64,000 bases of DNA from Cohnella sp. OV330 (GTDB taxonomy: Bacteria; Bacillota; Bacilli; Paenibacillales; Paenibacillaceae), in assembly GCF_900112065.1 (NCBI RefSeq), contig NZ_FOKE01000015.1:62001-126000 (forward strand). Reading direction: 5' to 3'. The position numbers and the translations under genes are program-made. The notes under the pieces were generated by a model that searched no databases, was not told the origin of the DNA, and worked only from the letters and a program-made list of their open reading frames with translations. Within the stretch, counting starts at the first letter, position 1; each line of letters starts with the position of its first letter. This document shows positions 12,339 to 43,713 of the stretch, piece after piece.

Positions 12339-13293
12339 AGGCTTCCATGATGATGTTCGAGTAATTGTTGTAATCGAAATTGTTGTCCGTCGCGCCGGCG
12401 ATAGCGAAGATGATGATCAGCGCGATGATGACGAAGTACAGCACCGTGCCCACGATCGAGCAGATGAGTCCGGCGACGGCCATGCCGGAACCTTGTTCGC
12501 CTCGTACGCGGATCTCCTTCAGCGAGATCGCGGACACGATGATGCCGACGACGCCCAGGAAGAAGCCGATGAACGGAATGACGATCGAACCGATGCCGAG
12601 AATGAGCGCGGCTACCGACTTGCTGTTCGAGCGTGCAGGCGGCGTCAGGGGAGGACGGGCATAATCGTAGACCGGCGGGCGGAAAGAAGAGGGATGCGCC
12701 GACCCGCCGAAGTACGGTTGTTGGCCCTGGTTGGGATGCTGCGCGTAGGAGGAACCGTGCGGCGGCGGATAGTAGCCGCCTTGGTTAGGCGCGTGCGGAT
12801 GGCCCGCATGCTGTGCATGCTGGTTATCCGCACGCGGCGGGTACCCGCCCTGCTGAGGCTCGGGCTGCCAGCCCTGCTGAGCCCGCGCTTGTTCATCCGG
12901 CGCGCGGTACCCGCCCTGCTGGGGCTCGGGCTGCCAGCCCTGCTGAGCCCGCGATTGCTCATCCGGCGCGCGGTACCCGCCCTGCTGAGGCTCCGGCCGC
13001 CAGCCCTGCTGAGCCCGCGCTTGTTCATCCGGCGCGTGGTACCCGCCCTGATGGGGCTCGGGCCGCCAGCCCTGCACAGATCGCGCCGGCTCATCGGCCG
13101 CGCGATACCCGCTGTCGGCCTGCGCTTCGTGCGCTCGCGCCGGCTCGCTCGCCGCGCGATCGCCCGCGGCTTCGCCGCCGCGGTCCGCCGGCTGGGCCGG
13201 CGAAGCGTCCGGCGCCGTGCCCGCATCCGGGCCAGGGGATGGATCCGTCGGTCCCGGCCCGCCCCAATTGTTGTTCGAATCGTCGGATGTCAT
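12337..13293 (-). CDS. DUF4190 membrane protein with a Gln/Pro/Gly-rich repeat region
   Basis: 318 residues. Residues 1-60 are acidic and disordered. Residues 62-149 hold four tandem 22-residue units of the form GY-x-APDEQARAQQGW-x-PEP-x-QG. Residues 150-215 are His/Gln/Pro/Gly-rich. The C-terminal 100 residues are a DUF4190-type domain with two hydrophobic hairpins (SVAALILGIGSIVIPFIGFFLGVVGII and GLICSIVGTVLYFVIIALIIIFAI) separated by an SLKEIR-containing loop. AGGGAG stands before the ATG. It follows the DUF975 gene by 34 bases, so the two are probably one operon. The function of DUF4190 proteins is unknown. The repeat region is probably cytoplasmic and unstructured (inferred). Confidence 0.82.
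   Translation of the reverse strand: MTSDDSNNNWGGPGPTDPSPGPDAGTAPDASPAQPADRGGEAAGDRAASEPARAHEAQADSGYRAADEPARSVQGWRPEPHQGGYHAPDEQARAQQGWRPEPQQGGYRAPDEQSRAQQGWQPEPQQGGYRAPDEQARAQQGWQPEPQQGGYPPRADNQHAQHAGHPHAPNQGGYYPPPHGSSYAQHPNQGQQPYFGGSAHPSSFRPPVYDYARPPLTPPARSNSKSVAALILGIGSIVIPFIGFFLGVVGIIVSAISLKEIRVRGEQGSGMAVAGLICSIVGTVLYFVIIALIIIFAIAGATDNNFDYNNYSNIIMEA
12847..13110 (-). repeat. Four in-frame 66-bp tandem repeats inside the DUF4190 gene
   Basis: Each 66-base unit encodes 22 residues. The three downstream units are nearly identical and the first is diverged. The repeat period is an exact multiple of three, so copy number can change without a frameshift. Confidence 0.85.
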
Positions 13294-21810: not shown

Positions 21811-22010
21811 TGCGTCCGACGCCGCTGTAACGGTAGAAACTGCTCTTGCAGCAGCCCGGGACGCGTCATCCGCCACTGTAGCCGCAGAAACTGCTGTTGC
21901 AGTAGTTCGGGTCGCGTCATCCGCCACTGTAGCCGCAAAACTGCTGTTGCAGTAGTCCGGAGCGCGCCATCCGCCGCTGTAACCGCAGAAACTGTTGTTG
22001 CAGCAGGCCG
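21811..22010. repeat. Four-unit tandem array with 50-51 bp pitch
   Basis: Units centre on CTGCTGTTGCAG-like hairpins starting at 21840, 21891, 21941 and 21992 (spacings 51, 50, 51). The core ACTGC-TGTT-GCAGT forms a short hairpin in copies 2 and 3. A similar block with CGCGCCTACAG flanks both sides (near 21790 and 22033). It fills most of the 555-base gap between the ATPase and moxR-type genes. The one-base deletion in unit 3 and lack of ribosome sites argue against coding. Confidence 0.8.
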
Positions 22011-26293: not shown

Positions 26294-26312
26294 AACGAGA
26301 AGCTCCTTCCAA

Positions 26313-26450
26313 GTGCCTACGAGGTTAGCTGGAGGGTTCGGTTGAAGGTTCCCTATGGCTTCTGCGCGAGGCAAAGCCAATTCACCCGGTAAAGACTGGT
26401 TCCCCCGTTTCCCAGTGCGCGGGAATTCGGCAGTTTTCGCACCTTAGCTT
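26313..26450 (-). ncRNA. c-di-AMP riboswitch (ydaO/yuaA family)
   Basis: On the minus strand the conserved blocks occur in order: CGGGGGAACC-type (GGGGGAACC), GGGTGAAT, AGGGAACC and CCGAACC, and the highly conserved 3' block CAGCTAACCTCGTAGGC. GTGC near 26443 can close P1 with GCAC near 26313. The family sits before cell-wall hydrolases and potassium/osmolyte genes and shuts expression when c-di-AMP is high. The P1 3' strand lies only about 5 bases from the AAGGAG of the hydrolase gene. I see no separate terminator between them. Positions 26451-26706 hold nothing I can identify. Confidence 0.92.
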
Positions 26451-37528: not shown

Positions 37529-39244
37529 TTACATTCGCTCCGGCGCGGCGATGCCCAGCAGCTTCAAGCCGCGTCCCAGCAGATGGCCGACCGCCGCCGA
37601 CAATCGCAAGCGCGCCTGCGTGCCTGCCGCGTCGTCCGGCTGGATCACCTTGCCGTCGTGATAGAAGCGGTTGAAGTCGCGCGCCAGTTCCAGCAGGAAA
37701 CGCGCCACGGCCGACGGCTCGTTGTCTCGAACCACCTCGCTCACGGCGGCGCTCCACTGGGTGAGCCGTTTGGCGCAAACCCAAGCGGCATCCGCCATAT
37801 CGACGCCCTCGTCCGCTGCAAGGGGCGCAGCGGATACGCCGTCCTGCCCGTTCTGCGGCTCAAAGCCGCCCTTGCGCAGCAAGCTGGCGATCCTCGCGTG
37901 CGTATACTGCACGTAAGGCCCTGTCTCGCCGTCGAAGCTGACGACTTCTTCCAGCTTAAAGTCCACGGACAGCTGCCTGCGGTTTTTCAGATCGCCGAAC
38001 ACGACCGCGCCGATGCCGACGTCTTCGGCGACCTCGTCCGCGTTCGGCAGATCCGGGCTCTTGGCCGCGATGATCTCGCGCGCTCTGCGCACCGCTTCGT
38101 CCAGCACCTCGTCCAGGAAGACGACCTTCCCCCTGCGGGTGGACATCTTCTTGCCCTCCACGGTCATCAGCCCGAACGGCACATGCTCGCAGTCTCCCGT
38201 CCACGGTTCTCCCATTTTCCCCAGCACGCCGAACACCTGCTTGAAATGCAGTTGCTGCTCGGCGCCGACGACGTACAGCAGACGGTCCGCCTTCATGACA
38301 TGCTTGCGGTATATCGCGGTCGCGAGGTCGCGGACCGGATAGATCGTGGCGCCGTCTTTCTTGAGAATCAGGCAAGGCGGCAGCCCTTCCTCGTCTAGCC
38401 TGACGACGAGCGCGCCGTCGCTCTCCTCGAGCAGCCCCTGCGCGCGCAGGCGGTCCAGGACGGGCGCCAGCTTGTCGTTGTAGAAACTCTCGCCGAGCAC
38501 TTCGTCGAACCGGACGCCGAGCCGCGCGTAGACGCGCTCGAACTCGTTCATGCTCGCTTGGACGAAAAAGCGCCAGAGCGCCGTCGTCTCCTCGTCCCCT
38601 TGCTCGAGCCGCAGAAAGGCTTCCCTTGCCTCGTCCTCCAGTGTCGGATGTTCCGCCGCCTCCTCGTGGAATCGGACGTACAGCTGCAGGCTCTCCCCGA
38701 TCGGATCGGCTTCGAGCGCCGATTTGCCGCCCCATCGGCGGTAGGCGACGATGAGCTTGCCGAACTGGGTGCCCCAATCGCCGAGGTGATTGACGGTCGT
38801 TACGGCGTGCCCGGTCTCTCTGTAAAGGTTGGCCAGCGCATTGCCGATCATCGTGGAGCGCAGGTGGCCGACGCCGAGCGGCTTGGCGATGTTGGGCGAG
38901 GACATGTCGATGACGACATGTCGGCCGCGGCCCTCGTCGCTGCTCCCGAAGCCGGGTTCGAGAGCGGCGTCGACGATCCGGCCCAGCCAGGCGGCGGGAT
39001 CGAAAAACAGGTTGACGTACCCGCCAGCAGCCACGGCTCGGACGCCATGAGCGGCGGCGACTGCATCGGCGAGCTCCGCGGCGATCGCGGCCGGCGGGCG
39101 GCGAAGCTGCTTCGCCAGGACGAAGCAAGGGAATGCGACGTCGCCGAGGCGCGGCTCCGGAGGCGTCTCGAGCCGGCGCAGCAGCGCCTCCTTTTCTAAC
39201 GGTACGTGGGGTTGCAGCAGCGCTGCGGCTTGTTCCAACAGCAT
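37529..39244 (-). CDS. argS: Arginyl-tRNA synthetase (T-box controlled paralogue)
   Basis: 571 residues; charges tRNA-Arg. The class I signature HIGH appears as VGHLRST in SSPNIAKPLGVGHLRST, and KMSK appears as GKKMSTRRGKVVFLDEVL. The C-terminal anticodon-binding domain ends LLGIAAPERM, the usual ArgS ending. It differs clearly from the second ArgRS in this window (HLGH and KMSK forms there), so it is a separate lineage rather than a recent duplicate. AAGGAGGA precedes the ATG. A T-box leader upstream makes expression depend on uncharged tRNA-Arg. Confidence 0.95.
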   Translation of the reverse strand: MLLEQAAALLQPHVPLEKEALLRRLETPPEPRLGDVAFPCFVLAKQLRRPPAAIAAELADAVAAAHGVRAVAAGGYVNLFFDPAAWLGRIVDAALEPGFGSSDEGRGRHVVIDMSSPNIAKPLGVGHLRSTMIGNALANLYRETGHAVTTVNHLGDWGTQFGKLIVAYRRWGGKSALEADPIGESLQLYVRFHEEAAEHPTLEDEAREAFLRLEQGDEETTALWRFFVQASMNEFERVYARLGVRFDEVLGESFYNDKLAPVLDRLRAQGLLEESDGALVVRLDEEGLPPCLILKKDGATIYPVRDLATAIYRKHVMKADRLLYVVGAEQQLHFKQVFGVLGKMGEPWTGDCEHVPFGLMTVEGKKMSTRRGKVVFLDEVLDEAVRRAREIIAAKSPDLPNADEVAEDVGIGAVVFGDLKNRRQLSVDFKLEEVVSFDGETGPYVQYTHARIASLLRKGGFEPQNGQDGVSAAPLAADEGVDMADAAWVCAKRLTQWSAAVSEVVRDNEPSAVARFLLELARDFNRFYHDGKVIQPDDAAGTQARLRLSAAVGHLLGRGLKLLGIAAPERM

Positions 39245-40119: not shown

Positions 40120-41793
40120 ATGAACGTGCTGGAGCAGACATACGAGACGTTAAAAGAAGCGATCGCGGACGCCGCGGTCAAGGCGGGGGTCGTGGAGCGG
40201 GAGCAGGTGCCGGCGATCGTCATCGAAGTGCCCCGCGACAAGGCGCACGGCGATCTGGCCACCAACGCGGCCATGCAGCTGACGCGCATCGCGAAGAAAA
40301 ATCCGCGCGAGATCGCGATCGCGATCATCGAGAACCTGGACAAGGCTAAGGCGAATGTCACGTCCGCGGAAATCGCGGGTCCGGGCTTCATCAATTTCCG
40401 CTTGGACAAGCGCTATCTGCTGCCTGTCGTCGCATCCGTGCTGGAGCAGGGCGGCGCATACGGCCGTACGGACGCCGGCGGCGGACGCAAGGTCCAGGTC
40501 GAATTCGTGAGCGCGAATCCGACGGGCAGCCTGCATCTTGGCCACGCGCGCGGCGCCGCGGTCGGCGATGCGCTGTGCAACGTGCTGGCGTTTGCGGGCT
40601 ATGACGTTTCGCGCGAATACTATATCAATGACGCGGGCAACCAGGTTAATAACCTGGCCCGCTCCATCGAGGCGCGTTACCGCCAGGCGCTCGGCGAGGA
40701 TGCGGCGATGCCGGAGGACGGCTATTACGGCGAGGATATCGTCGGGTTCGCGAAGGAGCTTGCGGAGCGCGAAGGCGCGCGCCTGCTGGAGAAGACGGAG
40801 GAGGAGCGCTTCGACTACTTCCGCAGCTACGGCCTCGAGCGCGAGCTGGACAAGATCAAGCGCGACCTCGGCCGGTTCGGCGTGAGCTTCGACAGCTGGT
40901 ATAGCGAGACTTCGCTGTATCGGACGGGCAAGGTCGAAGGCGCGCTCGAAGCGCTGCGCGCGCAAGGCCACGTGTATGATGAGGAAGGCGCGGTCTGGCT
41001 GAATACGACGGCATTCGGAGACGACAAAAACCGCGTGCTTGTCAAAAACGACGGCAGTTACACTTATCTGACGCCCGACATCGCCTATCATATGGACAAG
41101 TTCGCGCGCGGCTTCGACGAGCTGATCAACATCTGGGGCGCCGACCACCACGGGTACATTCCGCGCGTCAAGGCGGCCATGGCGGCGCTCGGCCACGACC
41201 CGCAGCGCTTGACGGTACTGATCGCGCAGATGGTCAGCCTGTTCCAAAACGGCGAAAAAGTCAAAATGTCCAAGCGCACGGGCAAGGCGATCACGATCGA
41301 GGACCTGATGGACGAAGTCGGCGTCGACGCGATCCGCTACTTCTTCACGATGCGCAGCATGGACACGCATCTGGACTTCGACATGGATCTGGCCGTCTCG
41401 ACTTCCAACGAGAATCCGGTGTTCTACGTGCAGTATGCTCATGCGCGCATCTGCAGCATCTTCCGCCAGGCGGAGGAGCAGGGCGTCGCCGTGCTGCCGG
41501 TGGCCGAGGCGAACCTGGAGCTGCTCACGGCCGAGCACGAGTACGATCTGCTGCGCAAAATGGGCGAGTTTCCCGCCGTCGTCGCCGACTCGGCGAAGGA
41601 TTACGCGCCGCACCATATCGTGCGTTACGTGTACGAGCTGGCCGCGCTCTTCCACAGCTACTACCGCGCGGAGCGGGTCATCACCGAGGATGCCGCGCAG
41701 AGCCAGGCGCGCCTGCAGCTGTTGGCCGCGCTGCGTCACACGCTGGCCAACGGCTTGCGCCTGATCGGCGTGTCCGCGCCGGAGCAGATGTAA
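40120..41793 (+). CDS. argS: Arginyl-tRNA synthetase (housekeeping form)
   Basis: 557 residues, class I. HIGH motif as [14 protein letters not shown] within [16 protein letters not shown], and KMSK as [19 protein letters not shown]. The N-terminal Add-1 domain ([12 protein letters not shown]) and C-terminal DALR domain ([17 protein letters not shown]) are both complete. GGAGGAATAGGGTC precedes the ATG. It sits behind ywiB as in B. subtilis and has no T-box, so it is probably the constitutive enzyme. It ends just before the 51-bp repeat array. Confidence 0.97.
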
Positions 41794-41816
41794 GCGGCGG
41801 GAAGCGATATCGCTGG

Positions 41817-42300
41817 AATAACGGTGCCTAACACCGTTATTTCGCGTCAGGGCCACGAAACCGCACGAATAACGGCGCCAGGCACCGTTATTCCACATCG
41901 CGGCCACGAAACCGCATGAATAACGGCGCCTAGCACCGTTATTTCGCATCGCGGCCACGAAACCGCATGAATAACGGTGCCTAGCACCGTTATTTCGCGT
42001 CAGGGCCACGAAACCGCACGAATAACGGCGCCAGGCACCGTTATTCCACATCGCGGCCACGAAACCGCATGAATAACGGCGCCTAGCACCGTTATTTCGC
42101 ATCGCGGCCACGAAACCGCATGAATAACGGTGCCTAGCACCGTTATTTCGCGTCAGGGCCACGAAACCGCACGAATAACGGCGCCAGGCACCGTTATTCC
42201 ACATCGCGGCCACGCTACCGCGCAAATAGCGGTGCCCAGCGCCGTTAATTCGCGTTGTAGCCACGATATGGCACAAATAACGGCGCCCGGCACCGTTATT
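41817..42300. repeat. Ten-unit 51-bp palindromic array with a 153-bp higher-order repeat
   Basis: AATAACGG (AATAGCGG in unit 9) begins each unit at 41817, 41868, 41919, 41970, 42021, 42072, 42123, 42174, 42225 and 42276: exactly 51 bases each time. In the A-type units (41970 and 42123 are exact) AATAACGGTGC and GCACCGTTATT form a perfect 11-bp stem around CTA. The order A-B-C-A-B-C-A-B plus two decayed units shows that 153-bp blocks were duplicated. The linkers carry GGCCACGAAACCGCA. It fills the gap between convergent argS and the subtilase gene. Confidence 0.95.
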
Positions 42301-42321: not shown

Positions 42322-43506
42322 TTAGTCCTTATTGCGCGCCGCAATCCCGGATACCCCGGCCGATGATTCGCCGGCAACCTCCAGCATGCGCAGGACATCC
42401 AGCTCCCCGGCTCCCTGGGGAGCTTTGTCGTATCCGAGCGGCTTCGCGGACCGGCGCAGGATATCCTTAATCCGGCCCGGGGACAGCCCCGGCCGGAGCG
42501 CGAGCAGCAACGCCACCGCGCCGGTTACGTGCGAGGTCGCCATCGACGTGCCGCTCATGACGCGTCGGCGGGCGTTCGGCCAGGCGGATTCCACTTTCGC
42601 GCCTGGAGCGTAAATATCGATGGCGGCGCTGCGGTTCGTGAAGCGCGCGATCCGGCCGCGCCGGTCGAGCGCTCCGACGGCGACGGTTCGCCCGAAGCCT
42701 GCCGGAAAGTCGATCCGGCCTTTCCTGCCGTCGTTGCCCGACGAGGCGACGATGAGCACGCCGGCCCTGTGCGCGCTCTCGACCGCCTTCAGCAGCGCCT
42801 CGCTCCGGTTCGGCATGCCGAAGCTCATGTTCACGATGTCCATGCCGTGATGGACGCACCACTCGATGCCGAGGATGATGTCGGACACGTACGCGGAGCC
42901 GTCGGTATCGAACGCTTTGACCGGATGGATCTCCGTTCGCGGCGCGACGCCGATCATGCCGCGCGAGGCGTTGGCAGCGGAGATGATTCCCGCGATATGC
43001 GTGCCGTGCCCGTTGTCGTCATGCGGCAGCGACGCTCGCTGCAGGAGGTTGATGCCGCGGCTCAGGGCGTGGCGAAGGTCGGGGTGGCCGAAGTCGACGC
43101 CGGTGTCGATCACGCCGACCTTGACCCGCTGCCCAGTCGTGCGGCTCCATGCCTGCGGCGCGCGGATGCGCCGAACGCCCCAAGGGATGTCCATCTTGCT
43201 GTCCGCGCGGACGAACGGCCTCGGGAGCGCTCGGCTGATCTGGACGCTTCGGTCTTCCTCGAGCACGCAGCCGTAACCCAGCAGAGGGATCAGAGAGGCA
43301 ACGGGCAGCGGGAGGCTAAAGCCGCCGATGACCCGGATCGGACGAGCGGCGCGCAGCGCGGCGCCGCTCGATCGCCTGGCGGCCAGCTTCGCGAGGAACC
43401 TGCGGCCGTCCTCATGCCTTGCGAACCGTACGATCGTTCTGGCGCCATGCTCCCCGCCGCCGGCGAGCAGGCGGCGGAGGAGGCGAAGGAGAGCGCTCGT
43501 GTCCAT
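42322..43506 (-). CDS. Subtilisin-like serine protease (S8), no signal peptide
   Basis: 394 residues with the full S8 triad: Asp in KVGVIDTGVDFGHPDL (about 133), His in NGHGTHIAGIISAANAS (about 168) and Ser in MSGTSMATSHVTGAVALL (about 318). An N-terminal region of about 110 residues looks like an inhibitor-type prodomain, but no signal peptide or membrane helix is visible. It is therefore likely intracellular or exported by another route. The ATG at 43506 has GGAAGGAGG upstream. It is convergent with argS across the repeat array. The physiological target is unknown. Confidence 0.88.
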   Translation of the reverse strand: MDTSALLRLLRRLLAGGGEHGARTIVRFARHEDGRRFLAKLAARRSSGAALRAARPIRVIGGFSLPLPVASLIPLLGYGCVLEEDRSVQISRALPRPFVRADSKMDIPWGVRRIRAPQAWSRTTGQRVKVGVIDTGVDFGHPDLRHALSRGINLLQRASLPHDDNGHGTHIAGIISAANASRGMIGVAPRTEIHPVKAFDTDGSAYVSDIILGIEWCVHHGMDIVNMSFGMPNRSEALLKAVESAHRAGVLIVASSGNDGRKGRIDFPAGFGRTVAVGALDRRGRIARFTNRSAAIDIYAPGAKVESAWPNARRRVMSGTSMATSHVTGAVALLLALRPGLSPGRIKDILRRSAKPLGYDKAPQGAGELDVLRMLEVAGESSAGVSGIAARNKD

Positions 43507-43713
43507 GTGCTGGCCTCCTTCCCGGCTTAGATTTCCCATACTATGTATACCGGCGGAGCAAAGCTTGGGAGTATGGCCCGGGAATGCTTAAATTGGGCGA
43601 CAAGCGGTGTCAATTCGGTTCCCGGCACATAATATGAAGTGGGAGTTTCCCCGGAGAGACTCTCGCACCCATGTAGGTTCCTCCTCCCGAGGAGCGCGGA
43701 AGGGTACAGTCGG

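Follow-up and report, generated by a model that had tools for sequence, protein, structure and literature searches.

A helically phased, amplified palindrome element in Cohnella and other Bacilli as a possible operator cluster for a putative DNA-binding assembly

What kind of element is formed by ten palindromes set at an exact step between two convergent genes? The array that raises this question occupies positions 41817–42300 of the window, a stretch of 64,000 nucleotides from Cohnella sp. OV330. It fills the gap between argS (arginine–tRNA ligase, 40120–41793, plus strand, TIGR00456), whose stop is located 23 bp upstream, and the gene of an S8 (subtilase) peptidase (42322–43539, minus strand, PF00082), which is convergent with argS and has its stop 21 bp past the array. 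The array was delineated with the unit pattern and TRF and is assigned to neither strand, as are its units; each unit is a 25-bp palindrome with the motif AATARCGG-N9-CCGYTATT. Units 1–3, of types A, B and C, are located at 41817–41841, 41868–41892 and 41919–41943; units 4–6 repeat this order at 41970–41994, 42021–42045 and 42072–42096; units 7 (A) and 8 (B, with a diverged linker) follow at 42123–42147 and 42174–42198. The last two units, 9 (42225–42249) and 10 (42276–42300), are diverged. Every interval between unit starts is 51 bp, which confirms the ten-unit step and the coordinates of the original prediction. TRF describes the region 41816–42300 both with a period of 51 (9.5 copies, 83% matches, score 634) and with a period of 153 (3.2 copies, 93%, score 809). 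The longer period corresponds to the order A-B-C-A-B-C-A-B in units 1–8; the repeating A-B-C order proposed earlier holds for these eight units and ends at the two diverged ones, and the suggested joint copying of three-unit blocks is supported by this higher-order repeat. Perfect 11-bp arms around CTA, claimed for all A units, are present in units 4 and 7, and unit 1 has one stem mismatch; B units (2, 5 and 8) and C units (3 and 6) carry the single mismatch foreseen for them. The linkers of the array are homogenised and shared among units.

A second array with a 51-bp step, detected with TRF, is located at 21820–22010 of the window and is likewise unstranded. It is intergenic, lies downstream of an ABC transporter ATPase gene and contains about four units of another palindrome, approximately CTGTARCCGCAG-AAA-CTGYTGTTGCAG; the gene upstream has its own terminator-like hairpin and T-tract. 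Other features of the window include two distinct, neighbouring argS genes in opposite orientation (37529–39244, minus strand, and the plus-strand gene preceding the main array), both above the TIGR00456 cutoff, a c-di-AMP riboswitch (ydaO/yuaA leader; 26299–26442, minus strand, 68.9 bits) and a 66-bp tandem repeat (12840–13112, 4.1 copies, 88% matches). A protein product of the minus-strand open frame that spans the main array is opposed by the 50- and 52-bp steps of related arrays and by the antisense overlap of this frame with argS. An Rfam search over the array returned microRNA families only, far below their gathering scores, and a structured RNA of a known Rfam family is unsupported.

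The palindrome is not confined to this locus. The genome of origin contains 77 sites at up to two mismatches and none in the reversed control, which excludes chance as the source of the unit; these sites form several arrays, with steps of 51–52 bp except where units were missed. At up to one mismatch, sites are present in 16 of 40 genomes, the genome of origin included, with a maximum of 192 in one genome; the reversed control gave one match in each of 2 of the 40. A two-site pattern matched 28 stretches of named genomes, belonging to Cohnella luojiensis, C. cholangitidis, C. endophytica and C. lubricantis and also to three Paenibacillus, Gordonibacillus kamchatkensis and Ammoniphilus resinae. 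Across the order, a stricter single type was found in 22 of 392 genomes, representing 11 of 49 genera (control, 0). Across the class, a looser site was found in 14 of 398 genomes, at least twice in 8 and once in 6; the singletons equal the level of the reversed control (6 genomes, one match each). Since the site is found in its own genome, in other Cohnella and in some Bacilli only, the element is scattered rather than universal. The genome-wide search suggested with the original prediction has shown that the unit recurs elsewhere in the genome of origin, among further Cohnella and, with a patchy distribution, among the remaining Bacilli; the envisaged failure to find it elsewhere did not occur. 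The loci described below are a sample from among the matches listed in the genus, order, class and second-site searches. Among the matches listed for genome G016 (6.41 Mb), exact sites lie at 0.95–6.07 Mb; should position 1 be the origin, it may be avoided by the elements of this genome.

In 56 distinct arrays (64 with duplicates; 320 units), 226 of the 264 neighbour distances are exactly 51 bp. Some of these loci were drawn with a 51-bp pattern, which biases the set; the phasing was therefore measured in loci picked by one site. This set comprises 102 clusters, 13 of them lone sites, after removal of clusters whose best site was below 15/16, of duplicates and of overlapping weaker sites. Its neighbour distances fall into narrow classes at 41 bp (13), 50–52 bp (194), 60–63 bp (38) and 71–74 bp (17); the others are 32 bp (1), 39 bp (1), 75 bp (3), 79 bp (2) and 93–123 bp (twelve), and none is 53–59 or 64–70 bp. 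The Rayleigh statistic for distances of 36–80 bp, to which each cluster contributed every distinct value once, is R = 0.90, a value dominated by the 51-bp class (171 votes; the maximum of 2000 jittered sets is 0.36). When the 51-bp class and the second member of each orthologous pair are set aside, R for the remaining 58 votes is 0.83 at 10.5 bp (maximum of 2000 jittered sets, 0.51), and only 4 of the 58 are more than 2 bp off 51 + 10.5k, with about 30 expected if the distances were uniform.

The commonest non-amplified form of the element is a tetrad with the spacing 51-62-51 or 51-72-51, represented by 47 four-site runs at 42 loci. The outer steps of the tetrads are 50–52 bp and the central gaps are 60–63 bp (34, mean 61.65), 72–73 bp (11, mean 72.27) or 75 bp (2, bridging adjoining tetrads). 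The mean identity of linker 1 and linker 3 is 34.5%. Inspected by eye with regard to MITEs, which would have a conserved interior and terminal repeats with target-site duplications in similar copies dispersed through a genome, linkers and flanks of the tetrads look unrelated. Steps of 41 bp, one full turn shorter than 51, come in 12 of 13 cases from the arrays of a single genome, G423; two of its arrays (L192 and L195) have a 41-bp period, and L195 changes from 51-bp to 41-bp steps inside one locus. The spacing of sites is quantised by the DNA turn, which is a feature of helically phased multi-operator clusters. The conserved feature is the geometry: palindromes of 22–25 bp are placed whole DNA turns apart, at 51 bp and also at 41, about 61.7 and about 72 bp. 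The earlier proposal that a 51-bp step sets all palindromes on one face of the helix is strongly supported by this comparison with other genomes.

Orthologous loci show which parts of the element are kept. In the tetrad shared by genomes G113 and G074, where the flanking aminotransferase is 97% identical, the spacing is the same (51-62-52), and the sites are 93% identical (93/100) while the linkers are 62% identical (56/90). In a tetrad of G393 and G398, sites are 95% and linkers 84% identical; the alignment has no gap columns inside the tetrad, and its flanks have 54, end gaps among them. Another locus of the latter pair (sites 98%, linkers 97%) is uninformative. In the two informative pairs, sites and spacing are kept while linkers drift, which looks like selection on both; the architecture is very likely under selection. 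At the orthologous place after argS, the close relative G012 has only two window-type units, at a distance of 52 bp, and the DNA before unit 1 and after unit 10 of the window array resembles the two sides of the G012 array. The ten-unit array has therefore probably arisen from such an element by recent expansion in place. Unequal crossing-over or slippage would have stretched tetrads or pairs into 51-bp arrays in Cohnella, including the array of the window.

The same ruler is found with other palindromes. The argS gene is present in all 37 genus genomes, and its 3′ gap was inspected in 30 of them. Arrays of differing palindromes with a 51-bp step occupy this gap in G000 (10 units), G005, G018 and G022; G013 has an array with steps of 51–52 bp, G047 has one palindrome, and, apart from these and G012, no element was seen in the genomes inspected. 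The gap after gltX contains at least two of these sites, or has a period of 51 or 102 bp, in 10 of 30 genomes inspected (G000, G005, G012, G016, G018, G041, G044, G047, G049 and G051). In the same orthologous gap, the gltX 3′ flank at L209 and L210 (genomes G022 and G049) contains tandem repeats whose periods are close to 64 and 49 bp. In G049, the gltX gap has four copies of a different site, approximately TTAGTTGCA-N4-TGCAACTAA, with the spacing 51-61-51. A shortened form of this site was found in 14 of 392 genomes, against 10 of 392 for the reversed control; the near equality means that lone matches of this type are mostly due to chance, and neighbouring sites decide. Among 16 fetched loci of this type, full tetrads with gaps of 50–51, 60–61 and 50–51 bp are present at four (L234, L236, L242 and L247) and three sites in tetrad spacing at two (L237 and L248); ten have no neighbours with the scoring used, and one of these ten, in G052, shows 51-bp neighbours in a scan made without a motif.

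In 1.16 Mb of sequence drawn from 27 genomes, the motif-blind scan gave 89 pairs of similar palindromes 30–90 bp apart, 48 of them at 50–52 bp; three rounds of a shuffled control gave 10 pairs, none at 50–52 bp. Pairs belonging to the same array are not independent of each other, and five of the scanned pieces were chosen for containing a TTAGTTGCA-type match (5 of the 48 pairs are at two such matches). Clear clusters are present in four of the 27 genomes (G052, G040, G380 and G162), and doubtful ones in G000 and G024. Several palindrome types occur within one genome in G040 and in G018, in the latter after argS and gltX; such coexistence is awkward for a single sequence-specific protein. At locus L028, a 51-bp array of another palindrome (AATAGTGCCGC...GCGGCTCTAAT) lies at 1686–2322 beside a lone AATARCGG site.

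The elements are extragenic and located mainly near gene 3′ ends, as is typical of REP-like elements. According to a gene caller that had been trained on the sequences themselves, 50 of 118 clusters lie between convergent, 60 between codirectional and 8 between divergent genes; the counts of position and of sense-strand pairing cover clusters flanked by called genes at either end, with one cluster inside a called frame left out. Element-free gaps of at least 150 bp comprise 21 convergent, 83 codirectional and 44 divergent ones, corresponding to a convergent excess (Fisher p = 3e-7) and a divergent deficit (p = 2e-6) of the element. The position figures are taken from this second caller; the first, poorer one, which produced some antisense genes, also gave the convergent excess (34/92, p = 2e-7) and no significant divergent deficit (11/92, p = 0.26). 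Avoidance of divergent gaps could merely reflect insertions being tolerated away from promoters. In codirectional gaps, 40 of the 60 clusters are closer to the upstream stop than to the downstream start. Elements recur at orthologous places, including those beside argS, gltX-cysE, ddl and the gene of an HI0933-type flavoprotein. Detectable terminators are less frequent at codirectional genes with an element up to 60 bp from the stop (3/27 vs 78/213; nominal p = 0.009, one of two tests). At convergent genes, they are equally frequent with and without an element (10/41 vs 60/230), and a cruder comparison of terminators was negative.

The amplified intergenic element can tentatively be read, at somewhat short of even probability, as a phased operator cluster for a putative DNA-binding assembly, perhaps serving as a 3′-end boundary. 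In the predicted mechanism, a DNA-binding homodimer would occupy each palindrome, and these dimers, aligned on one face of the helix, would assemble into a single complex. That a DNA-binding assembly uses the architecture, with dimers on one face, is rather probable. Near gene 3′ ends, such a complex might, more tentatively, act as a boundary, a bidirectional roadblock to transcriptional read-through, above all between convergent genes; this role as a boundary or roadblock is doubtful. A search for the binder among genes recurring beside the elements revealed generic families and orthologous positions only. A position shared with hemL is not claimed: the aminotransferase of G074 and G113 grouped with a hemL-like protein, but its profiles are those of a class-III aminotransferase, below the listed equivalog cutoffs. 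The core TAACGG resembles a Myb site, and a Myb-like binder is proposed as an idea only.

Location near 3′ ends and between convergent genes would also suit BIME-like loading sites for gyrase, another topoisomerase or a nucleoid protein, in which wrappable phased palindromes would be placed where transcription accumulates positive supercoils, downstream of genes or between convergent ones. The tolerance of several palindrome types would be expected of a protein with a weak sequence preference. However, the 93% identity of sites against 62% of linkers in the orthologous tetrad of G113 and G074 points to sequence-specific recognition, and gyrase is generally regarded as universal, whereas only 22 of the order's 392 genomes have one strict type of the element. 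Loading sites of this kind are unlikely.

Pairing between the arms bears on whether the palindromes act as DNA or RNA. The sites were found by similarity to AATARCGG, and conservation of the core is thus partly built in; positions 5 and 9–12 were not selected. The counts of arm pairing at positions 5, 9 and 10 cover clusters with a 58–76-bp gap or with linker identity above 0.5. At position 5, which is A or G, the arms are paired in 103 of 185 sites in clusters with a 58–76-bp gap (91 expected, p = 0.04) and in 20 of 51 array consensus units (25.6 expected). Positions 9 and 10 covary between arms; in the arrays, they are paired in 42 and 40 of 51 units, with 17 and 26 expected. This covariation could result from shared descent within lineages, from homodimers of differing specificity or from selection for a hairpin. 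On the sense strand of the 60 codirectional clusters, there is no preference for G-U over A-C mismatches (204 vs 189, or 187 vs 196 when genes were taken from the first caller), and the balance of the two per cluster is even (26 and 25 clusters, p = 1). The near-independence of position 5 and the lack of a GU/AC bias argue for double-stranded half-sites and not for an RNA hairpin. The emphasis that the original prediction placed on a very stable hairpin agrees with the covariation of positions 9–10, while it is weakened by the near-equal GU and AC counts and by position 5, where any preference for pairing is slight.

RNA 3′-end hairpins, acting as bidirectional terminators or as mRNA-stabilising stem-loops of 3′ untranslated regions, would account for perfect or near-perfect inverted repeats close to gene 3′ ends, for the covarying inner arm positions and for the smaller number of other terminators in codirectional cases; the hairpin of a site passes a loose terminator test at 31 of 139 3′ ends. 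Nevertheless, the absent G-U preference is not what such RNA would leave, RNA structure does not explain linkers quantised in steps of 10.5 bp, and the hairpins of the window array are followed by TTATT or TTATTT and nothing longer. This explanation is clearly improbable. Marginally more so is recognition of structure, in which cruciforms or hairpins of any sequence would have their arms phased onto one face. It would explain one geometry across different palindromes and the covariation of inner arm positions; against it stand the behaviour of position 5 and the fact that orthologues conserve the sequence of their sites and not symmetry alone.

A neutral or selfish satellite, in which palindrome-promoted slippage yields functionless tandem copies, fits the expansion to 10 units where G012 has 2, the homogenised linkers and the higher-order repeat, but as a whole explanation it is very improbable, and for the tetrads strongly disfavoured, as these keep 51-62/72-51 despite unrelated linkers, hold sites and spacing between orthologues while linkers drift, and space their sites in DNA turns. 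Duplication of single units together with their linkers describes window units 1–8 and does not describe the tetrads (identity of linkers 1 and 3, 0.345). The comparison with satellite DNA made in the original prediction consequently applies to the expansion of the window array and fails as an account of the element as a whole; a functional site cluster can become a satellite-like array through local expansion.

Returning to the phased operator cluster, one may consider, with still less confidence, that the Bacilli, above all Paenibacillaceae, possess an undescribed chromosomal system. Its assemblies would have a fixed ruler (about five turns between dimers, two pairs per complex) and a changing palindrome specificity and would be bound near tens or more 3′ ends per genome, setting boundaries of transcription or supercoiling. 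If a protein assembly does bind, the elements mark boundaries of bacterial chromatin or transcription beside housekeeping genes. No tested known family fits the element and, to our knowledge, no known family is defined by geometry across changing palindromes. Intergenic elements defined by geometry and not by sequence are unusual and would tend to be missed by ordinary searches for repeats and motifs. No description of the element was found in the open-access literature searched, outside which most subscription journals lie, or under repeat terms in the available text of the Cohnella genome paper (PMC10308117).

Several known systems share some of these features. CRISPR arrays have a comparably regular alternation of repeats and linkers; unlike them, the arrays described here have shared linkers, their palindromes vary among arrays and the tetrads have only four sites. 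The original prediction had set CRISPR aside because linkers are shared rather than unique, and the linkers of the arrays bear this out. The plasmid centromere sopC of F is built of inverted-repeat units in tandem, set at a constant period, to which a partition protein binds; the present elements differ in occupying many chromosomal loci beside housekeeping genes and in forming tetrads as well as arrays. A plasmid origin is unsupported, with no match of the window array among 72,556 plasmid records.

Mycobacteriophage stoperators, as presented in PMC9283540, are binding sites in short intergenic regions, proposed to halt transcription elongation; each is an asymmetric 13-mer to which a monomer binds, and its orientation follows transcription. 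The present elements, for which a similar function is proposed, are palindromic, phased and chromosomal. A phage origin is likewise unsupported. In viral contigs, the AATARCGG pattern has 78 matches, one with a strong 51-bp neighbour and two with weak ones (at 41 and 63 bp), and the four matches of the TTAGTTGCA pattern have no neighbours. One viral-contig record (L260), perhaps host DNA, has a full site with further sites at distances of 51 and 103 bp.

REP elements and the related BIMEs are similar in other respects. The BIME-2 gyrase sites of E. coli are also intergenic palindromic clusters, and the gyrase motif contains phased DNA features, according to the accessible part of PMC6379681; the tetrad geometry and the taxon are different here. 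REP elements are described in PMC3733652 as intergenic palindromes in many copies, located mainly downstream of genes in convergent or codirectional gaps; their defining tag, GTAG or CGTC, sits at one palindrome end, and the spacer length ranges between 20 and 100 bp in the majority of REP dimers. The AATARCGG...CCGYTATT site lacks both tags. The Y1 transposase (PF01797) is encoded in 12 of 37 genus genomes, including one copy each in the element-bearing G044 and G014 and in G013, G022 and G049, and was not found in the element-rich G000, G016, G006, G041 and G018; with no PF01797 in these five and no tag, identity with the REP/RAYT system is unsupported. The element resembles REP and BIME sequences with their RAYT in being a multi-copy intergenic palindrome that forms clusters and arrays downstream of genes, and differs from them in a spacing that stays fixed in DNA turns while linkers and palindromes change.
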